Virus record (IMG/VR): IMGVR_UViG_3300008459_005087
Location: 1-20,599 of that record
Length of the DNA: 20,599 bases
Strand: one strand, 5' to 3'
Source of the DNA: a virus
Below are positions 10,657 through 20,093 of this stretch, one piece after another (position 1 is the first letter of the stretch; each line of letters starts with the position of its first letter). The notes under the pieces are model-generated. The model ran no database searches. It was not told where the DNA came from and was given only the letters and a program-made list of their open reading frames with translations. Both the position numbers and the translations under genes were made by a program.

Positions 10657-11350
10657 ATTTATTTTTGATGTTGATGGTACCCTTACACCATCACGCAATG
10701 TGATTGATCCTATCTTTAAGACTTGGTTTCTACAGTTTTGTTTGGATAATCCAGTCTATATCGTAACCGGTAGCGACAAAGCTAAGACGATTGAACAAAT
10801 TGGGCACGATATTTGGAATGCTTGTGCTCGAGTGTATCAATGTTCTGGTAACGACGTATGGGAACAAGATCAAAACATTCGAGTTAACTCGTTTGTACCT
10901 ACTGACGACATGAACAAGTTCTTCTCAGTTTGGCTTAACCTAAGTAACTACAAGATAAGAACTGGCCAACATGTCGATGTACGTCCAGGTCTGATCAACT
11001 TTAGTATCGTAGGACGCGGAGCCACGAAAGGCGAACGTGCTGATTATGTAAAATACGATGAAGAGAACGGTGATCGTCGTACTATCGCTGAAGCATTCAA
11101 TAACTACTTTAGACCTGGTTACGTTGCTCAGGTGGCTGGTGAGACAGGTATCGATATTATGAGAGCCGGAGAAGATAAGTCACAGATCATTCGTGACTTC
11201 ACTTCAGGTGATAGGCTACACTTCTTTGGTGATAAGATTATGCCTGGCGGTAATGATTACACTCTTGCAGCTGAAGTAATCAAAAGAAGTGGAAGTGTTT
11301 ATAGTGTAAGAGATTGGAGAGAGACATGGCAGCACCTGAAAAGATCGTAG
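10649..11350 (+). CDS. Eukaryotic-type phosphomannomutase-like HAD enzyme
   Basis: HAD-superfamily phosphosugar mutase resembling eukaryotic PMM1/PMM2, which interconverts hexose-6-phosphate and hexose-1-phosphate. Of 233 residues, the core begins FDVDGTLTP (5-13; nucleophile and acid Asp pair). Then come VTGSDKAKTIEQIG (PMM GGSDFEKVQEQLG), a cap segment RPGLINFSIVGRG followed by ER (PMM RNGMLNVSPIGR...ER), GIDIMRAGEDKSQI (PMM SFDVFPDGWDKRYCL) and FFGDKIMPGGNDYTLA (PMM FFGDKTMPGGNDHEIF). This cap is specific to PMM and not shared with bacterial PMM/PGM enzymes. The likely role is to make mannose-1-phosphate or glucose-1-phosphate for nucleotide sugars. The next gene starts 25 nt before its stop. 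The family assignment is firm; the substrate is inferred. Confidence 0.85.
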   Translation: MNRFIFDVDGTLTPSRNVIDPIFKTWFLQFCLDNPVYIVTGSDKAKTIEQIGHDIWNACARVYQCSGNDVWEQDQNIRVNSFVPTDDMNKFFSVWLNLSNYKIRTGQHVDVRPGLINFSIVGRGATKGERADYVKYDEENGDRRTIAEAFNNYFRPGYVAQVAGETGIDIMRAGEDKSQIIRDFTSGDRLHFFGDKIMPGGNDYTLAAEVIKRSGSVYSVRDWRETWQHLKRS

Positions 11351-11769
11351 GATTTACTGCATCAACGTTTGACCTTCTTCATGCTGGTCATATTTCAATG
11401 CTACGAGAAGCAAAAGAGCATTGCACGTATCTGATCGCAGCTTTGCAAGTAGATCCTTCTATCGATCGTAAAGAGAAGAACAAGCCAGTTCAAACACTTG
11501 TGGAACGATACGTACAGCTGTCTGCAGTGAAGTATGTAGATGAGATTGTGTGCTATGTGACTGAGCAAGATCTTGTTGACATTCTGCAGATGTATGATAT
11601 AAATGTAAGGATACTTGGTGACGAGTACAAAGACAAAGACTTCACGGGTAAAGACGTATGTCAGGCCCGCGGCATTGATTTGTACTTTAACAAGCGAGAC
11701 CATCGCTTCAGTAGTTCTGGTCTACGTAAACGAATTTATGATATGGAGAAGCTAAAAGATGTCAACTAA
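11326..11769 (+). CDS. Cytidylyltransferase-like nucleotidyltransferase (TagD/HldE-C type)
   Basis: HxGH nucleotidyltransferase that would join a phosphorylated sugar or polyol to CTP or ATP. The 147 residues hold GFTASTFDLLHAGHISMLREAK (split around residues 9-30, with HAGH), ERYVQLSAVKYVDEIV (as TagD ER...V..I.YVDEV), LGDEYKDKDFTG and a C-terminal RFSSSGLRKRI, the S-S-S-x-x-R motif of the family. I chose the ATG at 11326, five to six bases after GGAGAG; a TTG at 11314 is in frame but poorer. The gene overlaps the mutase gene by 25 nt, so the two are made together and a shared nucleotide-sugar or polyol pathway is likely. Substrate unknown. Confidence 0.85.
   Translation: MAAPEKIVGFTASTFDLLHAGHISMLREAKEHCTYLIAALQVDPSIDRKEKNKPVQTLVERYVQLSAVKYVDEIVCYVTEQDLVDILQMYDINVRILGDEYKDKDFTGKDVCQARGIDLYFNKRDHRFSSSGLRKRIYDMEKLKDVN
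11576..11603 (+). promoter_or_regulatory. Candidate internal sigma70 promoter in the nucleotidyltransferase gene
   Basis: TTGACA (11576-11581), 16-nt spacer, TATAAA (11598-11603), about 155 nt upstream of the MazG-like gene. It has the GTTGACAT extension. Confidence 0.45.
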
Positions 11770-13114: not shown

Positions 13115-13348
13115 ATGACTCGCACTACCAACTACGTTATGACTGTCGATCTTGAAAACGGTAAAGCTAATGACGATCTTTTGACTCTCGTTCGTACTCT
13201 CATCCGTCTTGAGAACAAGTATACCGGCTCTAAAAAGTATGTGAAGCTGCAGGGTCGTGGCCCTCGTCTCGGCAATCGGCGGTATAACCAATCGCTTCCT
13301 TTGCCTCTTGCAAAAACCGCTGACGTCTATGTCTACGAGCGTCGGTAA
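13115..13348 (+). CDS. Small basic protein of unknown function (77 residues)
   Basis: An Arg- and Lys-rich short product with no recognised family: an N-terminal strand (YVMTVDL), a helix (DDLLTLVRTLIRLENKY), a basic loop (GRGPRLGNRRYNQS) and a final strand (ADVYVYERR). It is the first gene behind the promoter at 13057, with AGAGAAT before the ATG, and its stop overlaps the start of the next gene by one base (TAATG), so the two are coupled. The order strand, helix, basic loop, strand could fit a small nucleic-acid-binding fold, which is a guess only. Confidence 0.75.
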   Translation: MTRTTNYVMTVDLENGKANDDLLTLVRTLIRLENKYTGSKKYVKLQGRGPRLGNRRYNQSLPLPLAKTADVYVYERR

Positions 13349-13920
13349 TGATTTGTAAAGTACCAGAAAAAATTACCTTTGTACTAACTGAAGATCAGAA
13401 GAACCATATTCTTCAAATGTCAAAGGAAATTCATGCCTGTCCTGTGCGCTCGCGGGGCAGACCTTATGACATGATCTATAGGGCTGTGCGTAATGGTGCT
13501 ATTCTTGAATACGCTCTTGTAGCTCAAGGCGCTACTAAGAACGACGCTACATTCGATCATACGAATCCACTTACATACTGTTGGGATGTATTCTGGGATG
13601 GTCTTCGTGCAGAAGTGAAGTGTTTTTACTTCGATGAAAATACCCGATGGGTATCATTCCCATTACGGTTTGTGCAAACATTTATAAACACTACACGACG
13701 AGGCAGAAATCTTGTTGACATAATCATCTTTGGGTATTATACTGAGAGTAAGGATGGCAAGATCACTGCAAAATGGCGCCTTGTAGCGCCAAGTGATACG
13801 TTTGAGTCACGACTGCGAAAATGCAATAGCGAATATAAAAGTAGCTATGATCAGTACACCGGTCAGCTTAAGTACTTCTATTCTCATCCGGCTGAGCCGC
13901 GAGCAATTTATATTAAGTGA
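13348..13920 (+). CDS. Unknown protein with a possible PD-(D/E)XK nuclease core
   Basis: No family was recognised with certainty. The 190 residues include a helix with NGAILEYALVAQGATKN (about 49-65), then YCWDVFWDGLRAEVKCFYFDE (split about 77-97), where an Asp is followed by E-V-K, the spacing expected of a PD-(D/E)XK nuclease core, with the Glu of ILEYAL as a further possible ligand. The rest is strand-rich (WVSFPLRFVQTF, VDIIIFGYY, KWRLVAP). Two Cys near residues 31 and 92 are unpaired in any obvious zinc motif. It overlaps the small gene before it by one base, and a consensus-like promoter lies within its coding sequence at 13715. The nuclease idea is inference from one motif. Confidence 0.72.
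   Translation: MICKVPEKITFVLTEDQKNHILQMSKEIHACPVRSRGRPYDMIYRAVRNGAILEYALVAQGATKNDATFDHTNPLTYCWDVFWDGLRAEVKCFYFDENTRWVSFPLRFVQTFINTTRRGRNLVDIIIFGYYTESKDGKITAKWRLVAPSDTFESRLRKCNSEYKSSYDQYTGQLKYFYSHPAEPRAIYIK
13715..13743 (+). promoter_or_regulatory. Internal sigma70-type promoter leading into the hydroxymethylcytosine operon
   Basis: TTGACA (13715-13720), 17-nt spacer, TATACT (13738-13743), inside the 13348-13920 gene and about 185 nt before the kinase ATG. Both hexamers and the spacer length are identical to the intergenic gene 55 promoter at 7114. Confidence 0.65.
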
Positions 13921-13926
13921 GGTTTC

Positions 13927-14478
13927 ATGATTCTAATTATCGAAGGTATGGATCGTTGTGGTAAGTCGACACTCGTCGAACAGCTACGTAAACGATATTT
14001 TCTGAACAACACTCGAGTGCTCGTTCATCACTCGTCGTCTCCACCAAAGGTGGTTAATCCGAATGAGTGGGAAGTGCATCACTACAAGTCACTACTTGAT
14101 GTGAGCTACATGCTGAACTATGCTCATGACTTTGACGTAATCTATGATCGCTTCCACCTCGGTGCTATCGTCTATGGTAAGAAGTATCGCAACGCAGATC
14201 CAGAAGACATCTATGCAATCGAAAACATGTACATCCATCCTAATGATGAGATTGCTCTCGTTCTTCTGACTGATCATACCTCTGCGATCCTTGAGCGTGA
14301 TGATAATGACTCGCTTGAATCGTCTGCAGCAGAGTTCGATGAAACTCGCGAAGCCTTTGAGCAAGCATTCAAACGATCGATCATTCCCAACAAACTTCAC
14401 ATCAATATCAGTGAGAACGGTGGATTCATCAATACATATGATACCGTTACTCAATTTCTAGACGGAGTAGGAAAATGA
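13927..14478 (+). CDS. Thymidylate-kinase-like deoxynucleoside monophosphate kinase
   Basis: P-loop kinase of the thymidylate-kinase-like group. The 183 residues start MILIIEGMDRCGKSTLVEQL (Walker A G7-x4-GKS/T, 7-15), then have a DR motif in VIYDRFHLGAIVYG (Asp74-Arg75) and ALVLLTDHTSAILERDD, a stretch in the place of the lid. It starts six bases after the preceding gene, with TGAGGT as binding site, and overlaps the hydroxymethylase by an ATGA. By analogy with T4 gp1, which raises hydroxymethyl-dCMP to the diphosphate, this kinase is the best candidate for that step here, but it is not evidently a gp1 homologue (inference). Confidence 0.8.
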   Translation: MILIIEGMDRCGKSTLVEQLRKRYFLNNTRVLVHHSSSPPKVVNPNEWEVHHYKSLLDVSYMLNYAHDFDVIYDRFHLGAIVYGKKYRNADPEDIYAIENMYIHPNDEIALVLLTDHTSAILERDDNDSLESSAAEFDETREAFEQAFKRSIIPNKLHINISENGGFINTYDTVTQFLDGVGK

Positions 14479-15146
14479 AACAGCACAAAGTAAAAGACAT
14501 TCGTATTGCACTTCGCGACAAACTGCACAAACGTGACTTTATCACAGACAAGACCGGTGTGAAGACTATTGAGCTTATGGGTACGAGCTTCATTGCTGAC
14601 GAAGATGCGATCTTTGGCCAAGTAAATTGGGATTATGTTGAGCGTGAACTCGAGTGGTATAAGTCTATGTCGCTTAACGTGAACGATATTCCAGGTGGTG
14701 TAAAGCAAGAAACAAATCCTCCTCAGATCTGGATGTCTGTTGCTGATCCCGATGGTCTTATCAATTCGAATTATGGTTGGGCGATTTGGCACGAAGATAA
14801 CTGTGAACAATATGAACACTGTGTTGCAGAACTGAAGAAGAACCGTGACTCACGTCGCGCAATTATGATTTACACTCGGCCACAAATGTGGTATGATTAC
14901 AACAAGAACGGTCGTTCTGACTTCATGTGCACAAACTCTGTGCAATATCTCGTACGCAACAATAAGGTCCATGCAGTAGTTCAAATGCGTTCGAACGATG
15001 CAATCTTTGGCTATAAGAATGATCGTGCATGGCAAGAACATGTCCTATGTAAAGTTGCTCAAGATACCGGCTATGCGCCGGGCGATATCATCTGGAATGC
15101 CGGCAGCCTCCACATCTACGAAAGACATTTTGGGTTGGTTGAATGA
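14475..15146 (+). CDS. 42: dCMP 5-hydroxymethylase (gp42)
   Basis: Thymidylate-synthase-fold enzyme that makes 5-hydroxymethyl-dCMP from dCMP and methylenetetrahydrofolate, so that the phage can build hydroxymethylcytosine DNA. Similarity to T4 gp42 is high by eye: DFITDKTGVKTIE, RELEWYKSMSL, INSNYGWAIW, DSRRAIMIYTRP, DFMCTNSVQYL. The catalytic Cys152 matches T4 Cys148. Asp183 (FGYKND) matches T4 Asp179, which replaces the Asn of thymidylate synthases and selects cytosine. The nucleotide-binding block SLHIYERHF (211-219) is present. The protein is 223 residues against 246 in T4 and stops soon after this block, so the last twenty or so T4 residues are absent. ATGA overlaps join it to the kinase and the deaminase. 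Confidence 0.95.
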   Translation: MKQHKVKDIRIALRDKLHKRDFITDKTGVKTIELMGTSFIADEDAIFGQVNWDYVERELEWYKSMSLNVNDIPGGVKQETNPPQIWMSVADPDGLINSNYGWAIWHEDNCEQYEHCVAELKKNRDSRRAIMIYTRPQMWYDYNKNGRSDFMCTNSVQYLVRNNKVHAVVQMRSNDAIFGYKNDRAWQEHVLCKVAQDTGYAPGDIIWNAGSLHIYERHFGLVE

Positions 15147-15595
15147 GCAAGTGGGATCAACGTTATCTTAAACTCGCTTATCAGATCGCTCAATGGTCGA
15201 AAGATCCTTCGAGCAAAATAGGAGCAGTCGCCGTTGGATCTAAAGGGCAAGTTTTGTCCCAAGGCTTCAACGGCTTTCCTCGTGGCTTGAAAGACGACTT
15301 CACTCGTTTGAACGATCGTGAACTAAAGTACAAATATGTTGTTCACGCTGAGATGAATACTATTTACAATGCTACGTATAATGGTGTATCATTAGATGGA
15401 GCAACACTCTATGTCTATGGCCTTCCGATCTGTTCTGAATGTGCCAAAGGCGTTATCCAAGTTGGGATCAAGCGTGTAGTAATGCCAAAGCAGGAGATGC
15501 CAGAAAAGTGGCGTGACTCTTGGCTGACGAGCATGAACTTCTTTGACGAAGCAGGAGTGGACTTTGACTTCATCGATTTTAATCCTGGGCATTAA
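15143..15595 (+). CDS. cd: dCMP deaminase
   Basis: Zinc-dependent deoxycytidylate deaminase producing dUMP from dCMP. The 150 residues show SSKIGAVAVG near the N-terminus, the active site HAEMN (His68, Glu70) and the zinc pair PICSEC (Cys97, Cys100) followed by AKGVIQVGIKRVV. It is of the short type, against 193 residues for T4 Cd. Coupled by ATGA to the hydroxymethylase, it competes for the same dCMP, so the two enzymes share out cytosine nucleotides between dUMP/dTMP and hydroxymethyl-dCMP. The next gene begins inside its last 32 bases. Confidence 0.94.
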   Translation: MSKWDQRYLKLAYQIAQWSKDPSSKIGAVAVGSKGQVLSQGFNGFPRGLKDDFTRLNDRELKYKYVVHAEMNTIYNATYNGVSLDGATLYVYGLPICSECAKGVIQVGIKRVVMPKQEMPEKWRDSWLTSMNFFDEAGVDFDFIDFNPGH

Positions 15596-15929
15596 TCCGT
15601 CGAGTGGTAAGCCGAATAAAACAAGCGCAACCATCCAGCGACTTAACCGCTGGATGGACTTTCTTCATGTGAAACACTACTCGTTTACGAATGTAATCCA
15701 TACAACCGGAAAGTACACTTCAGATCTTATTGACTTTGAAACACTGAGAATGTTCACATCTGGTGCTGGTAAGATCATTGCTCTTGGCCCCTTTGTTTCG
15801 AAATCACTAAATAGAGCACACATCAACCATTTTACACTTCCTCATCCGTCGCCCCTGAACCGACAACTGAATGATAAGACGTTTGAACGTGAATGTCTCA
15901 TGAAGTGTAAAGCATTTATTGGAGAATAA
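15564..15929 (+). CDS. Uracil-DNA-glycosylase-superfamily-like protein
   Basis: The 121-residue product has the two hallmark segments of uracil-DNA glycosylases in the right order. The first is an N-terminal ILGINPSSGKP (about 7-17), like the GINPG catalytic loop of Mug/TDG enzymes. The second is a C-terminal LPHPSPLNR (about 90-98), like HPSPLS of Ung and NPSGLS of Mug, preceded by IIALGPFVSKSL, the usual helix before the final loop. It is shorter than Mug (168), so parts of the fold are missing or reduced. I place the start at TTG 15564 because AGGAG lies six bases before it, and no suitable ATG exists; a TTG at 15543 is also possible. Function as a base excision enzyme is inferred. Confidence 0.68.
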   Translation: MTSSILILGINPSSGKPNKTSATIQRLNRWMDFLHVKHYSFTNVIHTTGKYTSDLIDFETLRMFTSGAGKIIALGPFVSKSLNRAHINHFTLPHPSPLNRQLNDKTFERECLMKCKAFIGE

Positions 15930-15930
15930 T

Positions 15931-16791
15931 ATGAAAGTACTCGTAACTGGCGCAAGTGGATATATCGGATCACATATCGTAAAAGCTCTTTATAACAAAG
16001 GGTATACTATCGATACACTCGACACACGTATCACGCAGAACACTGGAATGATTCAGCATATGGTGAACTGCATTCATCATGGAGATATCACCGAACATGT
16101 TCATATCAATACTCATTACGATGCAGTAATTCATTGTGCTGCGCTCATTTCAGTCGAAGAGTCTATGAAAATGCCTGAGTCTTACTATGACGTGAATACG
16201 AATGGTACGCTTAAGCTTCTTCAAAGTCTCAAGTACAATCATTTTATCTTTGCTTCGACTGGTGGCGCGTTCGATCCTATTTCACCGTATGCTAAGTCGA
16301 AGATCATTGCTGAAGAAGCAGTACGTCAGATCGCACCAGAATATTCTATCTTTCGGTTTTTTAACGTTGCTGGTAATGACGGAGAGCTTGGCCAACCTTA
16401 TCTGGCAAGCCACATCATTCGAATTGCTGCAGAAGCTGCAGCTGGCAAGCGAGACAAGATGGTACTCTTTGGAAATGATTATGATACCCCTGATGGCACA
16501 TGTATTCGTGACTATGTACATGTTGTCGATCTGGCTGAAGCCATTGTTCGAAGTGTTCCTCTTCCTGCAAATTCAAAATATGAATGCATCGGTTCTGGCC
16601 GAGGGTTCTCGAATCTTGAAGTCATAAATACAATGAAGGAAGTCAGCGGTATCGACTTTCTTGTAGAATTCGGTCCACGACGTTCTGGTGATCCAGCGAA
16701 ACTTCTTGTTGACACTGTATCAAAGTATGTTAAGATTGATCATGATTTGAAAGATATGTGCCTCTCGGCTTACACTATGGAGTTGAAATGA
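15931..16791 (+). CDS. galE: UDP-glucose 4-epimerase (GalE-like)
   Basis: Extended short-chain dehydrogenase that interconverts UDP-glucose and UDP-galactose with bound NAD. The 286 residues show the nucleotide-binding GASGYIG (7-13), HCAALISVEESMKMPESYYDVN (split about 68-89), the catalytic YAKSK (Tyr120, Lys124) after an ASTGGAF strand, FRFFNVAG, the GalE signature FGNDYDTPDGTCIRDYVHV (180-198) and RRSGDPAKLLVD near the C-terminus. It is some 50 residues shorter than bacterial GalE. The start is ATG 15931 with GGAGAATAAT before it; a TTG at 15919 lies inside the previous gene. It overlaps the glycosyltransferase gene by ATGA, so its UDP-galactose is probably for that enzyme or for the mutase that follows. 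Confidence 0.9.
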   Translation: MKVLVTGASGYIGSHIVKALYNKGYTIDTLDTRITQNTGMIQHMVNCIHHGDITEHVHINTHYDAVIHCAALISVEESMKMPESYYDVNTNGTLKLLQSLKYNHFIFASTGGAFDPISPYAKSKIIAEEAVRQIAPEYSIFRFFNVAGNDGELGQPYLASHIIRIAAEAAAGKRDKMVLFGNDYDTPDGTCIRDYVHVVDLAEAIVRSVPLPANSKYECIGSGRGFSNLEVINTMKEVSGIDFLVEFGPRRSGDPAKLLVDTVSKYVKIDHDLKDMCLSAYTMELK

Positions 16792-17891
16792 AAAAGATTC
16801 TGATTACCGGTATGAACCGGCTACAGTGCAATAAAGACTTTTATTTGAAGCAGCAATTGCAAGTTGTCCCATCCCACTATTCGGTTATTCGTTGCCTTGA
16901 AGATATGGGATACGAAGTTGAACAGAGAGAAGTTGCTCTCGGTGAAGATCTGTCGTCATATGATGAAGTGATCGTTTACATCCACAGCATTCAAGCGTTC
17001 TGCCAACACATTTGGTCTGGTCTATACGCTGTTGCAGCTCGGCCGAATTGCATCATTGCTTTCGATGACTGGCAATTTAATCAGATCTATGGTGCTATCC
17101 AGACGTACCACGACGACCTCGTAGCAGGTGATGAGTCGGTCTATCGTGATTATCTCTTCGATTTGTGGCAAGGTAAAGAAGATCGTGAGACTGTGAAGCA
17201 GTATCATCAATCGTATATTGATGCATGTAAGATTGTTGTGTCGAAACAGAACCGTCTATTGGTCAGCGCATTTGCTGGTGGTGACATTTCTCTTTTGAAC
17301 CTTGGCTGGGATGAATCGAAAATCCACGTGTTCAACCCAAACCCTTATCACTTGAATCGTCGTGCTGATAATGGCTATGGCACTGGTGTAGTTACATCAA
17401 CTCTTGATTCGTTCTTTAATGAAGAGCCTGCGAAGCTGTTCCGTTGGAACTTTGCATCTCTTGTTCAAGAGAAGACTCGTAAATGGCTCAAAGCTCAGAA
17501 CCCTGAGAAGTGGCAATGGGAAATCGAGTACTTCGGTGCGAAGCGTGGTAAGTACAAGTCTGAACGTAAGACTGAACCTGAGATGGTGAAAGTCTTTGAG
17601 CAACAGTGGGGTTGCTTGATGCCAGGCTATTTCCATGCAGGTTCTGGTTGGTGGAGAGCTCGTCCTCTACAGGTTGCTGATGCTGGATCGATCATTATTG
17701 GTGACAAACCTGAGATGATGGTGTATTATAAGGATGAAGCCATTGCTAGCTTGAGAGTACAGGACATTGAAGCCATGGACTTGACTCAACTGAAAGCTAC
17801 AGCTGCAGCTCAAAAAGAAGCACTGTATGCTACTCATCCTCTCGATAAAGCAGTTCAGCGTGAAGAACTGAGAAAGATCCTTGAAGCATGA
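16788..17891 (+). CDS. GT-B glycosyltransferase, candidate hydroxymethylcytosine DNA glycosyltransferase
   Basis: The 367-residue product has the layout of a GT-B glycosyltransferase. The N-terminal Rossmann half begins KKILITGMN, with YDEVIVYIHSIQAF (58-71) and IIAFDDWQF (89-97) in places like YDRLIVVNSSINFF and FTDIRLPF of T4 beta-glucosyltransferase (the latter holds its catalytic Asp100). The C-terminal half has WEIEYFGAKRG (244-254), FEQQWGCLMPGYFHAGSGWW and RARPLQVADAGSIIIGD (290-306), a donor-binding strand pattern. It sits between galE and the UDP-galactopyranose mutase gene with ATGA overlaps on both sides. I infer that it moves galactose or galactofuranose to hydroxymethylcytosine in phage DNA; a cell-surface target is possible but less likely in this operon. 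The ATG at 16788 is favoured over a GTG at 16758. Confidence 0.78.
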   Translation: MKKILITGMNRLQCNKDFYLKQQLQVVPSHYSVIRCLEDMGYEVEQREVALGEDLSSYDEVIVYIHSIQAFCQHIWSGLYAVAARPNCIIAFDDWQFNQIYGAIQTYHDDLVAGDESVYRDYLFDLWQGKEDRETVKQYHQSYIDACKIVVSKQNRLLVSAFAGGDISLLNLGWDESKIHVFNPNPYHLNRRADNGYGTGVVTSTLDSFFNEEPAKLFRWNFASLVQEKTRKWLKAQNPEKWQWEIEYFGAKRGKYKSERKTEPEMVKVFEQQWGCLMPGYFHAGSGWWRARPLQVADAGSIIIGDKPEMMVYYKDEAIASLRVQDIEAMDLTQLKATAAAQKEALYATHPLDKAVQREELRKILEA

Positions 17892-18898
17892 AGAAGATTC
17901 TTGTAGTTGGCGCTGGCTTGTCTGGCGCCACTATTGCTCGTGAACTTGCAGAAACTGAGCAATACAAAGTTTGGGTATTTGACAAGCGTGGCCACGTTGC
18001 TGGTAATGCTTATGACTACACTAACATTCACAATATTCGTGTACATGAGTATGGCCCTCACCTGTTTCATACAAACAATAAAGAGGTGTTTGATTACCTT
18101 GGCCGCTTTACTGAATGGATTGAGTACAAGCATAAGGTGAAAGCTCAGCTCGACGACGGTCGATATGTCACACTTCCTGTGAACAAAGAGACCAAAGAGA
18201 TCGTTGGCGAAGAGAATGTTCTCGACATCTTCTTCCGTCCTTACACAAAGAAGATGTGGGGAATGGAACTTGACGAACTGAATCCTGACATTATCAATCG
18301 TGTACCGATTCGTAACGATATGAATGAACTGTACTTTCCTGATGATCAGTATCAAGCCATGCCGAAAGATGGCTATACTGAAATGGTTGCAAACATGCTT
18401 GACCACCCAAACATCATTGTTAAACTTAACACTGAGTATTCAAAAGACTACGATCATCTATTTGATCATATCTTTAACTCGATGCCGATCGATGAATACT
18501 TTGACTTTGTCCATGGTGAACTTCCGTATCGTTCGATCAAGTTCCATACAATGTCTCTGCCAAATCCTCATGTACTTCCATCAGCAACAGTCAACTTCAC
18601 GAATGATGGTATCTACACTCGTGTAACTGAATGGAAGAAACTGCCTCATCATGGAGACAATAAATATTGCACAACTCTGACTTACGAAGAACCGTGCGAT
18701 TACCGTGATAATAACCGAGAACGGTTCTATCCGGTGAAAGATCGTGATGGTAAGAATCGAGAGTTGTATGAGAAGTACAAATCCATGACTCCGAGTAATA
18801 CGACCTTCATTGGTCGTTGTGGCCTCTATGCTTATCTCGATATGCACCAAGCAGTCAACTCGGCCTTAGCAATAGTGAGAAAATTTAAGAATGAGTAA
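17888..18898 (+). CDS. glf: UDP-galactopyranose mutase
   Basis: FAD enzyme that contracts UDP-galactopyranose to UDP-galactofuranose. The 336 residues (bacterial Glf about 367-390) show the FAD-binding GAGLSGATIA (8-17), VFDKRGHVAGNAYD, HEYGPHLFHT (53-62), YTKKMWG, FPDDQYQAMPKDGYT (split about 145-159), TRVTEWKK and the C-terminal FIGRCGLYAYLDMHQAVNSAL (FAD and substrate contact). The active-site lid Arg and Tyr residues appear kept in these blocks, so the enzyme is probably active. It is joined to the glycosyltransferase by ATGA and overlaps the methyltransferase by 8 nt. Galactofuranose is usually a cell-surface sugar, so this gene inside a DNA-modification operon is notable. Confidence 0.94.
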   Translation: MKKILVVGAGLSGATIARELAETEQYKVWVFDKRGHVAGNAYDYTNIHNIRVHEYGPHLFHTNNKEVFDYLGRFTEWIEYKHKVKAQLDDGRYVTLPVNKETKEIVGEENVLDIFFRPYTKKMWGMELDELNPDIINRVPIRNDMNELYFPDDQYQAMPKDGYTEMVANMLDHPNIIVKLNTEYSKDYDHLFDHIFNSMPIDEYFDFVHGELPYRSIKFHTMSLPNPHVLPSATVNFTNDGIYTRVTEWKKLPHHGDNKYCTTLTYEEPCDYRDNNRERFYPVKDRDGKNRELYEKYKSMTPSNTTFIGRCGLYAYLDMHQAVNSALAIVRKFKNE

Positions 18899-20093
18899 CT
18901 TCACCCACGCTTCAATCGTTCCTCTTATTGGCGGTGAGACTATTGGATCGGAAAGAGCCTTTGGCACTCCACCGATCCACTTCATGTCGTATGAGGCTTT
19001 TGCTGCCAACGACTCTCACATCGTTAATCATTACGAGAATCGTATTCCGTATTACGTTCTTGATAAGGGCCAAGCACCTTCCGAGCGTGCAGATGTGGTT
19101 GCGTCCGTATGCCCGTGCGCGGGACTATCTATGATGTCTCATGGCTATGGCGATCACAACGAAAACAACAAGTGGATGGACATTACTGCAAAGTACGTCC
19201 TTGGCGAATATAAGCCAAAAGTGTTCTGGGGAGAGAATGCTCCCGGCTTTGCTGGAAAGATCGGTAAGAACGTTCGTGAGAACCTAAAAAAGATCGGACA
19301 AGAAAACGGCTACACGATGACGGTCTATCGTACAAAGTCTTTGCTTCATGGTGTTCCACAGATCCGTGAACGTTCATTCTACTTCTTCTGGAAAGGTACA
19401 CAGACTCCGCTACTTCATTACTTCAATCGCCCATACACTCCGATTGAAGAAGTCATTCGTAATGTGAAGTCGAACTTCCAACACGAACCGATCAACAAGA
19501 AGAAGCCATCTGAAAATCCATACTACAAGTACATCCTTGAAGCAATTCATGGTGGTCGTACTCACGTACAACACTCTCATGAAATCGATCCGTCGTCTGC
19601 TCGTGGTAATGACTCATTTAGTTACATTGAGAAGTCTGGCCATAATTATAAGCAAGTTGCTGAATGGATGGAAGCCAATGGGTTCTCTGAGGAAGTCGAG
19701 AAGTGCCTCTACAAGTACAATAAGCTTGAAGAAGGCGGAAGCATTATGCGCCGGGGTGTAATTGTCCCTAAGGATCGCATCGGCGCTTTTGTAGGACACT
19801 ATCCGATCATGCTTACACATCCTGATGAAGATCGCTTCATTACCTACCGCGAAGCCATGACTATTATGGGCCTTCCAGAGAACTTCGAACTTGTGAATGC
19901 TAGCCCGAAGAATGCTAACCATATTTGCCAAAACGTTCCAGTTCAGACTGCGACTGACATGGCAACAGAAGTTCTTGCAGTGTTAAATGGCCAAAGAAAA
20001 ATGGTTGACACCGATTACATTTTGCAGTATAATGGAACTCAGACAGAGGAATTCACCGCTGCTGAAAATACACTTGAGAGCTTTTTTGAATGA
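18891..20093 (+). CDS. C5-cytosine DNA methyltransferase homologue
   Basis: The 400 residues carry the C5-cytosine methyltransferase motifs in order. A motif I-like segment PLIGGETIGSERAFG (11-25) is followed by motif IV VCPCAGLS with the catalytic Pro75-Cys76, motif VI GENAPG (Glu115-Asn116; usually ENV), motif VIII PQIRER (156-161), a region of about 150 residues in the place of the target-recognition domain, motif IX DRFITYREAMTIMGLPENF (314-332) and motif X QNVPVQTATDM (347-357). Motif I lacks the usual FxGxGG but keeps a Gly-rich turn. Catalytic residues are intact. In a phage that should have hydroxymethylated cytosines its substrate is unclear. Its C-terminal tail encodes a perfect promoter for the next gene. 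The start overlaps the mutase stop by 8 nt. Confidence 0.9.
   Translation: MSNFTHASIVPLIGGETIGSERAFGTPPIHFMSYEAFAANDSHIVNHYENRIPYYVLDKGQAPSERADVVASVCPCAGLSMMSHGYGDHNENNKWMDITAKYVLGEYKPKVFWGENAPGFAGKIGKNVRENLKKIGQENGYTMTVYRTKSLLHGVPQIRERSFYFFWKGTQTPLLHYFNRPYTPIEEVIRNVKSNFQHEPINKKKPSENPYYKYILEAIHGGRTHVQHSHEIDPSSARGNDSFSYIEKSGHNYKQVAEWMEANGFSEEVEKCLYKYNKLEEGGSIMRRGVIVPKDRIGAFVGHYPIMLTHPDEDRFITYREAMTIMGLPENFELVNASPKNANHICQNVPVQTATDMATEVLAVLNGQRKMVDTDYILQYNGTQTEEFTAAENTLESFFE
20005..20033 (+). promoter_or_regulatory. Perfect-consensus sigma70 promoter inside the methyltransferase gene
   Basis: TTGACA (20005-20010), exactly 17 nt, TATAAT (20028-20033), 57 nt before the dexA start codon. It falls in the variable tail of the methyltransferase after motif X. 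Confidence 0.8.

Follow-up and report, generated by a model that had tools for sequence, protein, structure and literature searches.

The mini-UDG gene and its surroundings

The window analyzed here is the whole 20.6 kb (20,599 nucleotides) of the virus record. It is a fragment of a T4-like myovirus, whose major capsid protein shares 70% identity with the one in Sinorhizobium phages phiN3 and phiM12. On the plus strand, a deoxynucleotide/thymidylate kinase-like gene (13927..14478) is followed by a gene for a dCMP hydroxymethylase of the T4 gp42 family (14475..15146; E 1.8e-85), in which the dCMP-type Asp and the catalytic Cys are kept, and by a dCMP deaminase gene (15143..15595). The deaminase gene overlaps the start of a 121-residue ORF (15564..15929, +), which lies two genes downstream of the hydroxymethylase. 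The name mini-UDG was coined for its product, a predicted member of the uracil-DNA glycosylase (UDG) superfamily. The next genes on the same strand encode a UDP-glucose 4-epimerase-like protein (GalE; 15931..16791), a predicted DNA glycosyltransferase (phrog_14998; 16785..17891), a UDP-galactopyranose mutase, which makes UDP-galactofuranose (17888..18898), and a C5-cytosine methyltransferase homologue (18891..20093).

The ORF starts with TTG, and a ribosome-binding site, AGGAG (15553..15557, +), lies 6 nt upstream in a stretch that also codes for the deaminase. Two close relatives, L003 and L004, are 93% and 91% identical to the window protein, and both retain the TTG and the GGAG of the ribosome-binding site. 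A second in-frame TTG at 15543 was rejected as the start, because a stop closes the upstream frame in L003 and L004, which leaves 15564 as the only usable start there. In the region outside the deaminase-gene overlap, dN/dS against these two relatives is 0.09-0.13. The ORF is under purifying selection and is not a chance ORF. The TTG start with a well-placed AGGAG and the two motifs, GINPSS and LPHPSPLNR, are present as the initial annotation had described them.

Conservation and distribution of the family

Relatives were collected from IMG/VR by a DNA pattern (PHPSPLNR plus a spaced Asn), from loci around the hydroxymethylase gene, and by a profile-guided scan. The family comprises 189 loci, which form 65 groups at 85% identity and come almost entirely from uncultured viruses. 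In an end-to-end alignment of 52 diverse members, the 51 others stand at 28-58% identity, with one at 93%, and G9, P12, W30, N43, G75, H94, P95, S96, N99, R100, and N103 are invariant. The C-terminal motif B is the most conserved stretch of the family. The DNA search pattern itself imposes part of this motif; H94-S96, N99, R100, and N103 are also kept in seven groups reached through the hydroxymethylase gene, without the pattern.

All 52 members match the Pfam UDG family (PF03167) at E up to 0.1 (best E 2.7e-8), and the window protein alone scores 22.2 bits, just under the cut-off of 24.3. A match to DUF1643 (E 3.5e-3 with the window protein; 13 of the 52 members) is weaker than that to UDG for the window protein and was not adopted. 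Single-sequence searches with the window protein matched no PHROG or NCBIfam family. Sequence searches of the PDB gave no clear match, with only 3ikb (E 0.012) returned by the profile search; matches of the window protein to an RNA helicase and a dioxygenase were dismissed as chance.

In a set of 50,697 phage records, for the most part from cultured phages, the window protein had no match at E < 1 and five family members had no clear relative; a related hydroxymethylase is encoded in 1,351 of these records. A scan of bacterial assemblies, which needed an exact [LMA]PHPSPLNR and which divergent cellular relatives may escape, gave only two matches (L144 and L145). Each of them contains the phage cassette too, and they are probably viral contigs that were binned with bacteria, so a cellular origin was rejected. 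Mini-UDG is a phage-specific, conserved branch of the UDG superfamily.

A weak match (E 0.2) led to RL38J1_261 with PHPSGLNRMYND and from there to 23 records, mainly of rhizobial Pootjesviridae. These include gp041 of Sinorhizobium phage phiM9 (AKE44671.1), deposited as 'putative uracil DNA glycosylase' (pfam03167). The mini-UDG profile finds these relatives at E 2e-6 among 298 ORFs, and they are a distant sister group of the family. They share a PHPSGLxR-x-YND motif B and a UDG fold in BFVD (TM 0.61), and are encoded by T4-like phages with a second, divergent thymidylate-synthase homologue. Unlike mini-UDG, they are 146-181 residues long and lie outside the hydroxymethylase-deaminase block, and motif A of the RL38J1 protein is not GxNPS. 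Loci with such a distant relative, showing PHPSGLNR-x-xND-like motifs, are L220:2797-3342, L223:3998-4438, L224, and L225, from rhizobial Pootjesviridae and from one Manatee Spring phage; these phages carry thymidylate-synthase homologues, some of them divergent.

Predicted fold

An AlphaFold2 model of mini-UDG, built with the family alignment as input, reached pLDDT 94.1 and pTM 0.87. In this model, the protein has the four-stranded alpha/beta UDG fold. VIA-align superposed it over about 120 residues on the family 4 UDG 1vk2 (Z 11.8), UdgX (Z 11.2), TDG (Z 10.5), the TDG complex with 5hmU 4fnc (Z 10.1), and Mug (Z 10.2), and also on SMUG1 1oe5 (Z 9.8), with which identity was highest (22%). 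Foldseek against the PDB was less clear, placing vaccinia UDG on top at E 0.012 among unrelated alpha/beta folds. Among predicted viral proteins, the best match was an uncharacterised 117-residue phage protein (E 4e-14, TM 0.94), and the third was the phiM9 putative uracil DNA glycosylase. The loop that bears the base-stacking aromatic residue in other UDGs is reduced to a stub. Membership of the UDG superfamily, proposed earlier from the motifs, is supported by this model, with Z 9.8-11.8 to families 2, 3, and 4 and UdgX; a different fold would have spoken against it.

Active-site motifs and family assignment

Motif A (GINPS, residues 9-13; 15588..15602, +) was placed by alignment with published motif definitions (PMC10359453) and follows strand 1. 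Motif B (HPSPLNR plus N103, residues 94-103; 15843..15872, +) was placed by alignment and the model, with its HPS after strand 4. Family-wide, the motifs read GxNPS, FxN with invariant N43, and HPSPLNR-x-x-N. In known families, motif A is GINPG in family 2 and GMNPG in family 3, and motif B is HPSPRN in family 3 and HPSPLN in family 5 (PMC10359453).

Judging by the alignment, Asn11 would occupy the catalytic position of the SMUG1/TDG type. At position 13, nearly every group has Ser, Gly, Thr, or Ala; the corresponding residue in family 1 is the Tyr of GQDPY. This Tyr shuts out C5 substituents. The small Ser13 may leave room for such a substituent and, together with the motif features of the pocket, points to uracil with a C5 group as the substrate.

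Asn43 of the FTN motif (15690..15692, +) is present in all 64 groups that have the position. By motif and fold, it is the likely equivalent of N91 of UdgX and N82 of Sulfolobus tokodaii UDG, which read the Watson-Crick face of uracil. In UdgX, N91 of the TNAV motif (90TNAV93) and H178 of HPS pull on uracil (PMC10359453). The match of the invariant Asn43 and His94 to these two residues was counted for a uracil-type glycosylase.

The His of motif B would stabilize the leaving group, and a putative intercalation loop and short helix would follow. In the model, residues 100-103 form a four-residue helix, which may correspond to the SMUG1 wedge. This wedge is PSPRN-PQANK (PMC7922111), and the Asn spacing after motif B agrees between HPSPLN-R-x-x-N of mini-UDG and HPSPRN-PQANK of SMUG1.

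Family 4 UDG and UdgX are closest to mini-UDG in overall fold (Z 10.6-11.8) and have the T-N recognition motif and the motif-B His in common with it; their 4Fe-4S cysteines and GE(A/G/Q)PG contrast with the two Cys in all and GINPS of mini-UDG. TDG/Mug (family 2) share the GINP of motif A and the fold (Z 10-10.5), and a product complex with hydroxymethyluracil is known for TDG, but their motif B is of the MPSSSAR type instead of HPSPLNR. SMUG1 (family 3), which acts on 5-hydroxymethyluracil (PMC7922111), has the motif-A Asn and an HPSPxN behind which, as in the mini-UDG model, come a short helix and an equally spaced Asn. In contrast, mini-UDG is about half as long, had no cellular orthologue in the searches, and has GINPS (family-wide GxNPS) and HPSPLNR in place of GMNPG and HPSPRN. 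Family 5 agrees only in HPSPLN of motif B, as it has GLAPA and an Fe-S cluster, and family 1 UNG has GQDPY. Brig1-like enzymes carry Glu at the base-recognition position, where mini-UDG has Asn43. By these motifs, mini-UDG is outside families 1-5 and UdgX.

Linkage with hydroxymethylcytosine synthesis

Gene context was counted in the 53 groups whose upstream sequence spans 1.8 kb or more, taking neighbours within 5 kb on the same strand. A dCMP hydroxymethylase gene lies near mini-UDG in 46 of these groups and a dCMP deaminase gene in 37. In groups reached by the motif pattern only, the counts are 43/49 and 36/49, respectively. Wherever present, the two genes precede mini-UDG on its own strand (hydroxymethylase 50/50, deaminase 42/42), and the deaminase gene usually abuts or overlaps mini-UDG, with a median gap of -8.5 nt. 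Neither the dCMP-type Asp nor the catalytic Cys is missing from any of the 50 cassette hydroxymethylases. In one further group (L034), the hydroxymethylase is present in other members. In four larger records without an adjacent cassette, a thymidylate-synthase-type enzyme with the dCMP-type Asp is encoded at another place; none was found in the 168.8-kb record L113. The location in a hydroxymethylcytosine cassette, claimed in the initial annotation for the window, is supported, and most family members share it. The reverse does not hold, as 16 of 17 hydroxymethylase records searched, including contigs of 147.7 and 166.8 kb, lack mini-UDG, which is optional for hydroxymethylcytosine phages. A gene of about 122 residues with DUF1599 ('nucleotide modification associated domain 1') was also observed upstream near the hydroxymethylase in 37 of the 65 groups (e.g., L197:6444-6809).

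The genes downstream of mini-UDG vary and include DNA alpha-glucosyltransferase (AGT), UDP-glucose dehydrogenase, inositol-phosphate synthase, nucleotidyltransferase, epimerase, and UDP-galactopyranose mutase. Since the decorating genes vary while mini-UDG stays, it probably acts at the common level, hydroxymethylcytosine. In the window, the model of the phrog_14998 protein, a family of unknown function, has T4 beta-glucosyltransferase as its best structural match (pLDDT 76; VIA-align Z 16.2 over 302 residues), and this protein may put galactofuranose on hydroxymethylcytosine. Its occurrence together with GalE and UDP-galactopyranose mutase suggests that the window phage has galactofuranosyl-hydroxymethylcytosine DNA.

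Proposed function

Deamination of hydroxymethylcytosine yields hydroxymethyluracil, a base with the coding properties of thymine that the usual uracil glycosylase recognizes poorly. To our knowledge, there is no known answer to how hydroxymethylcytosine phages deal with this base. A cassette-linked phage glycosylase, if true, would answer this base-identity problem and would make the question testable.

From the fold, motifs, selection, and linkage described above, the substrate, activity, and role of mini-UDG can be predicted. Its location right at the deaminase and hydroxymethylase genes led to its being taken as the hydroxymethyluracil/uracil-DNA glycosylase of the phage. The preferred reading, with a probability of roughly 0.6, is a minimal SMUG1/TDG-like DNA glycosylase that would act on hydroxymethyluracil and probably on uracil too. 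The phage would make 5-hydroxymethyl-dCMP with its gp42-type enzyme, and hydroxymethyluracil could then arise in two ways. First, hydroxymethylcytosine may deaminate spontaneously within DNA. Second, the adjacent dCMP deaminase may convert 5hm-dCMP to 5hm-dUMP, which would enter phage DNA via 5hm-dUTP. The human dCMP deaminase produces 5hmdUMP from 5hmdCMP, so that hydroxymethyluracil appears in DNA (PMC10305735), and SMUG1 removes this base (PMC7922111). Because 5hm-dCMP is made next to the phage's own dCMP deaminase, the same risk would exist in the phage, besides deamination in DNA. Mini-UDG would flip hydroxymethyluracil into its pocket, where Asn43 and His94 would hold the uracil face and the C5 hydroxymethyl group would be tolerated beside Ser13. 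The glycosidic bond would be hydrolyzed with the help of Asn11, and the abasic site would be left for host or phage repair. The earlier proposal that the enzyme repairs deaminated hydroxymethylcytosine is thereby supported as the best fit to motifs and neighbourhood, as a predicted activity. A minimal enzyme of 121 residues might also serve for hydroxymethyluracil detection.

Points against this reading are the stub in place of the aromatic-bearing loop, the many hydroxymethylase phages that lack the gene, and the motif-A Asn, which is not kept throughout. In 20 of 63 groups, S, C, A, or R takes the place of this Asn, through at least four changes on the tree, while N43, H94, and the loop are invariant. 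Together with the linkage to the cassette, this pattern would suit a non-catalytic or differently catalytic reader, which would steer modification enzymes or repair by flipping or marking bases that are hydroxymethylated or deaminated, leaving the glycosidic bond uncut. Such a reader is considered unlikely, as the other 43 groups keep the Asn. In addition, family 5 UDGs, with GLAPA as motif A, are active without it (PMC10359453), so its loss does not mean lost catalysis.

The same loss in a third of groups, suggesting altered chemistry, also bears on a UDG-fold pool cleaner that would hydrolyze 5-hydroxymethyl-dUMP to base and sugar phosphate, like DNPH1, which removes 5hmdUMP in human cells (PMC10305735). 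The very small size of mini-UDG, its position directly behind the dCMP deaminase gene, often overlapping it, and the existence of a UdgX structure with dUMP (6ajp) favour this function. However, the DNA intercalation loop of motif B is the most conserved part, and its invariant N99, R100, and N103 would be unneeded by a mononucleotide hydrolase, which makes a pool cleaner distinctly improbable.

An attack on unmodified host DNA (a use proposed earlier) through removal of its C or U, or on modified bases of competing phages, as a phage counterpart of Brig1 and Brig3 (UDG-related enzymes that excise glucosyl-hydroxymethylcytosine and hydroxymethylcytosine; PMC11078745, PMC13160076), fits the DenB-like host-DNA endonuclease gene of the window and is nevertheless very unlikely, because the recognition residue is an invariant, uracil-type Asn and not the Glu147 that stands in Brig1 at the position of S. 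tokodaii UDG Asn82 and goes with removal of a cytosine-type base (PMC11078745), because an enzyme excising hydroxymethylcytosine would hit the phage's own DNA before the glycosylation step, and because the gene is linked to the synthesis cassette. The Brig pair likewise acts on phage DNA with modified cytosine, but belongs to bacterial defence, whereas mini-UDG is phage-encoded.

Searches of open papers, where absence is weak evidence, brought up no phage glycosylase of this kind. MetaGPA linked thymidylate-synthase and deaminase domains to modified cytosine, and its main text names no glycosylase (PMC8670742).

Variants and other cassette genes

In the largest Asn-lacking clade, Phe at residue 77 has given way to Glu or Asp, which may reflect compensation or descent. 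Groups with GHSPS or GLAPG instead of GxNPS (L066, L073, L076, L099, L126, L129, L132, and others) mostly have Glu/Asp77 in place of Phe. An AGT-type DNA alpha-glucosyltransferase gene adjoins mini-UDG in 9 of the 20 Asn-lacking groups. A tentative, rather doubtful extension is that this virus-only small UDG-fold family is a regular proofreader of hydroxymethylcytosine DNA synthesis, in which a third of lineages would work without a motif-A Asn or acid, by an undescribed catalytic arrangement.

The C5-cytosine methyltransferase homologue recurs: it is present in 26 of 65 cassettes, even though no cytosine should escape hydroxymethylation. Both its N-terminal cofactor region (PLIGGETIGSERAFG) and its motif IV (PCAGLS) seem altered. 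The DenB-like endonuclease gene is located at 13348-13920 of the window, and an unrelated 255-residue gene takes its place in L004 (L004:2600-3367). A cytidylyltransferase-like gene (window 11314-11769; TASTFDLLHAGH) occurs near mini-UDG in 13 groups and is possibly another nucleotide-sugar step. In 11-15 groups, mini-UDG is followed by a block of three genes of about 384, 300, and 348 residues (L178:712-1860, L178:1860-2759, and L199:10392-11435). These genes have no Pfam match and are candidates for an undescribed decoration of hydroxymethylcytosine.
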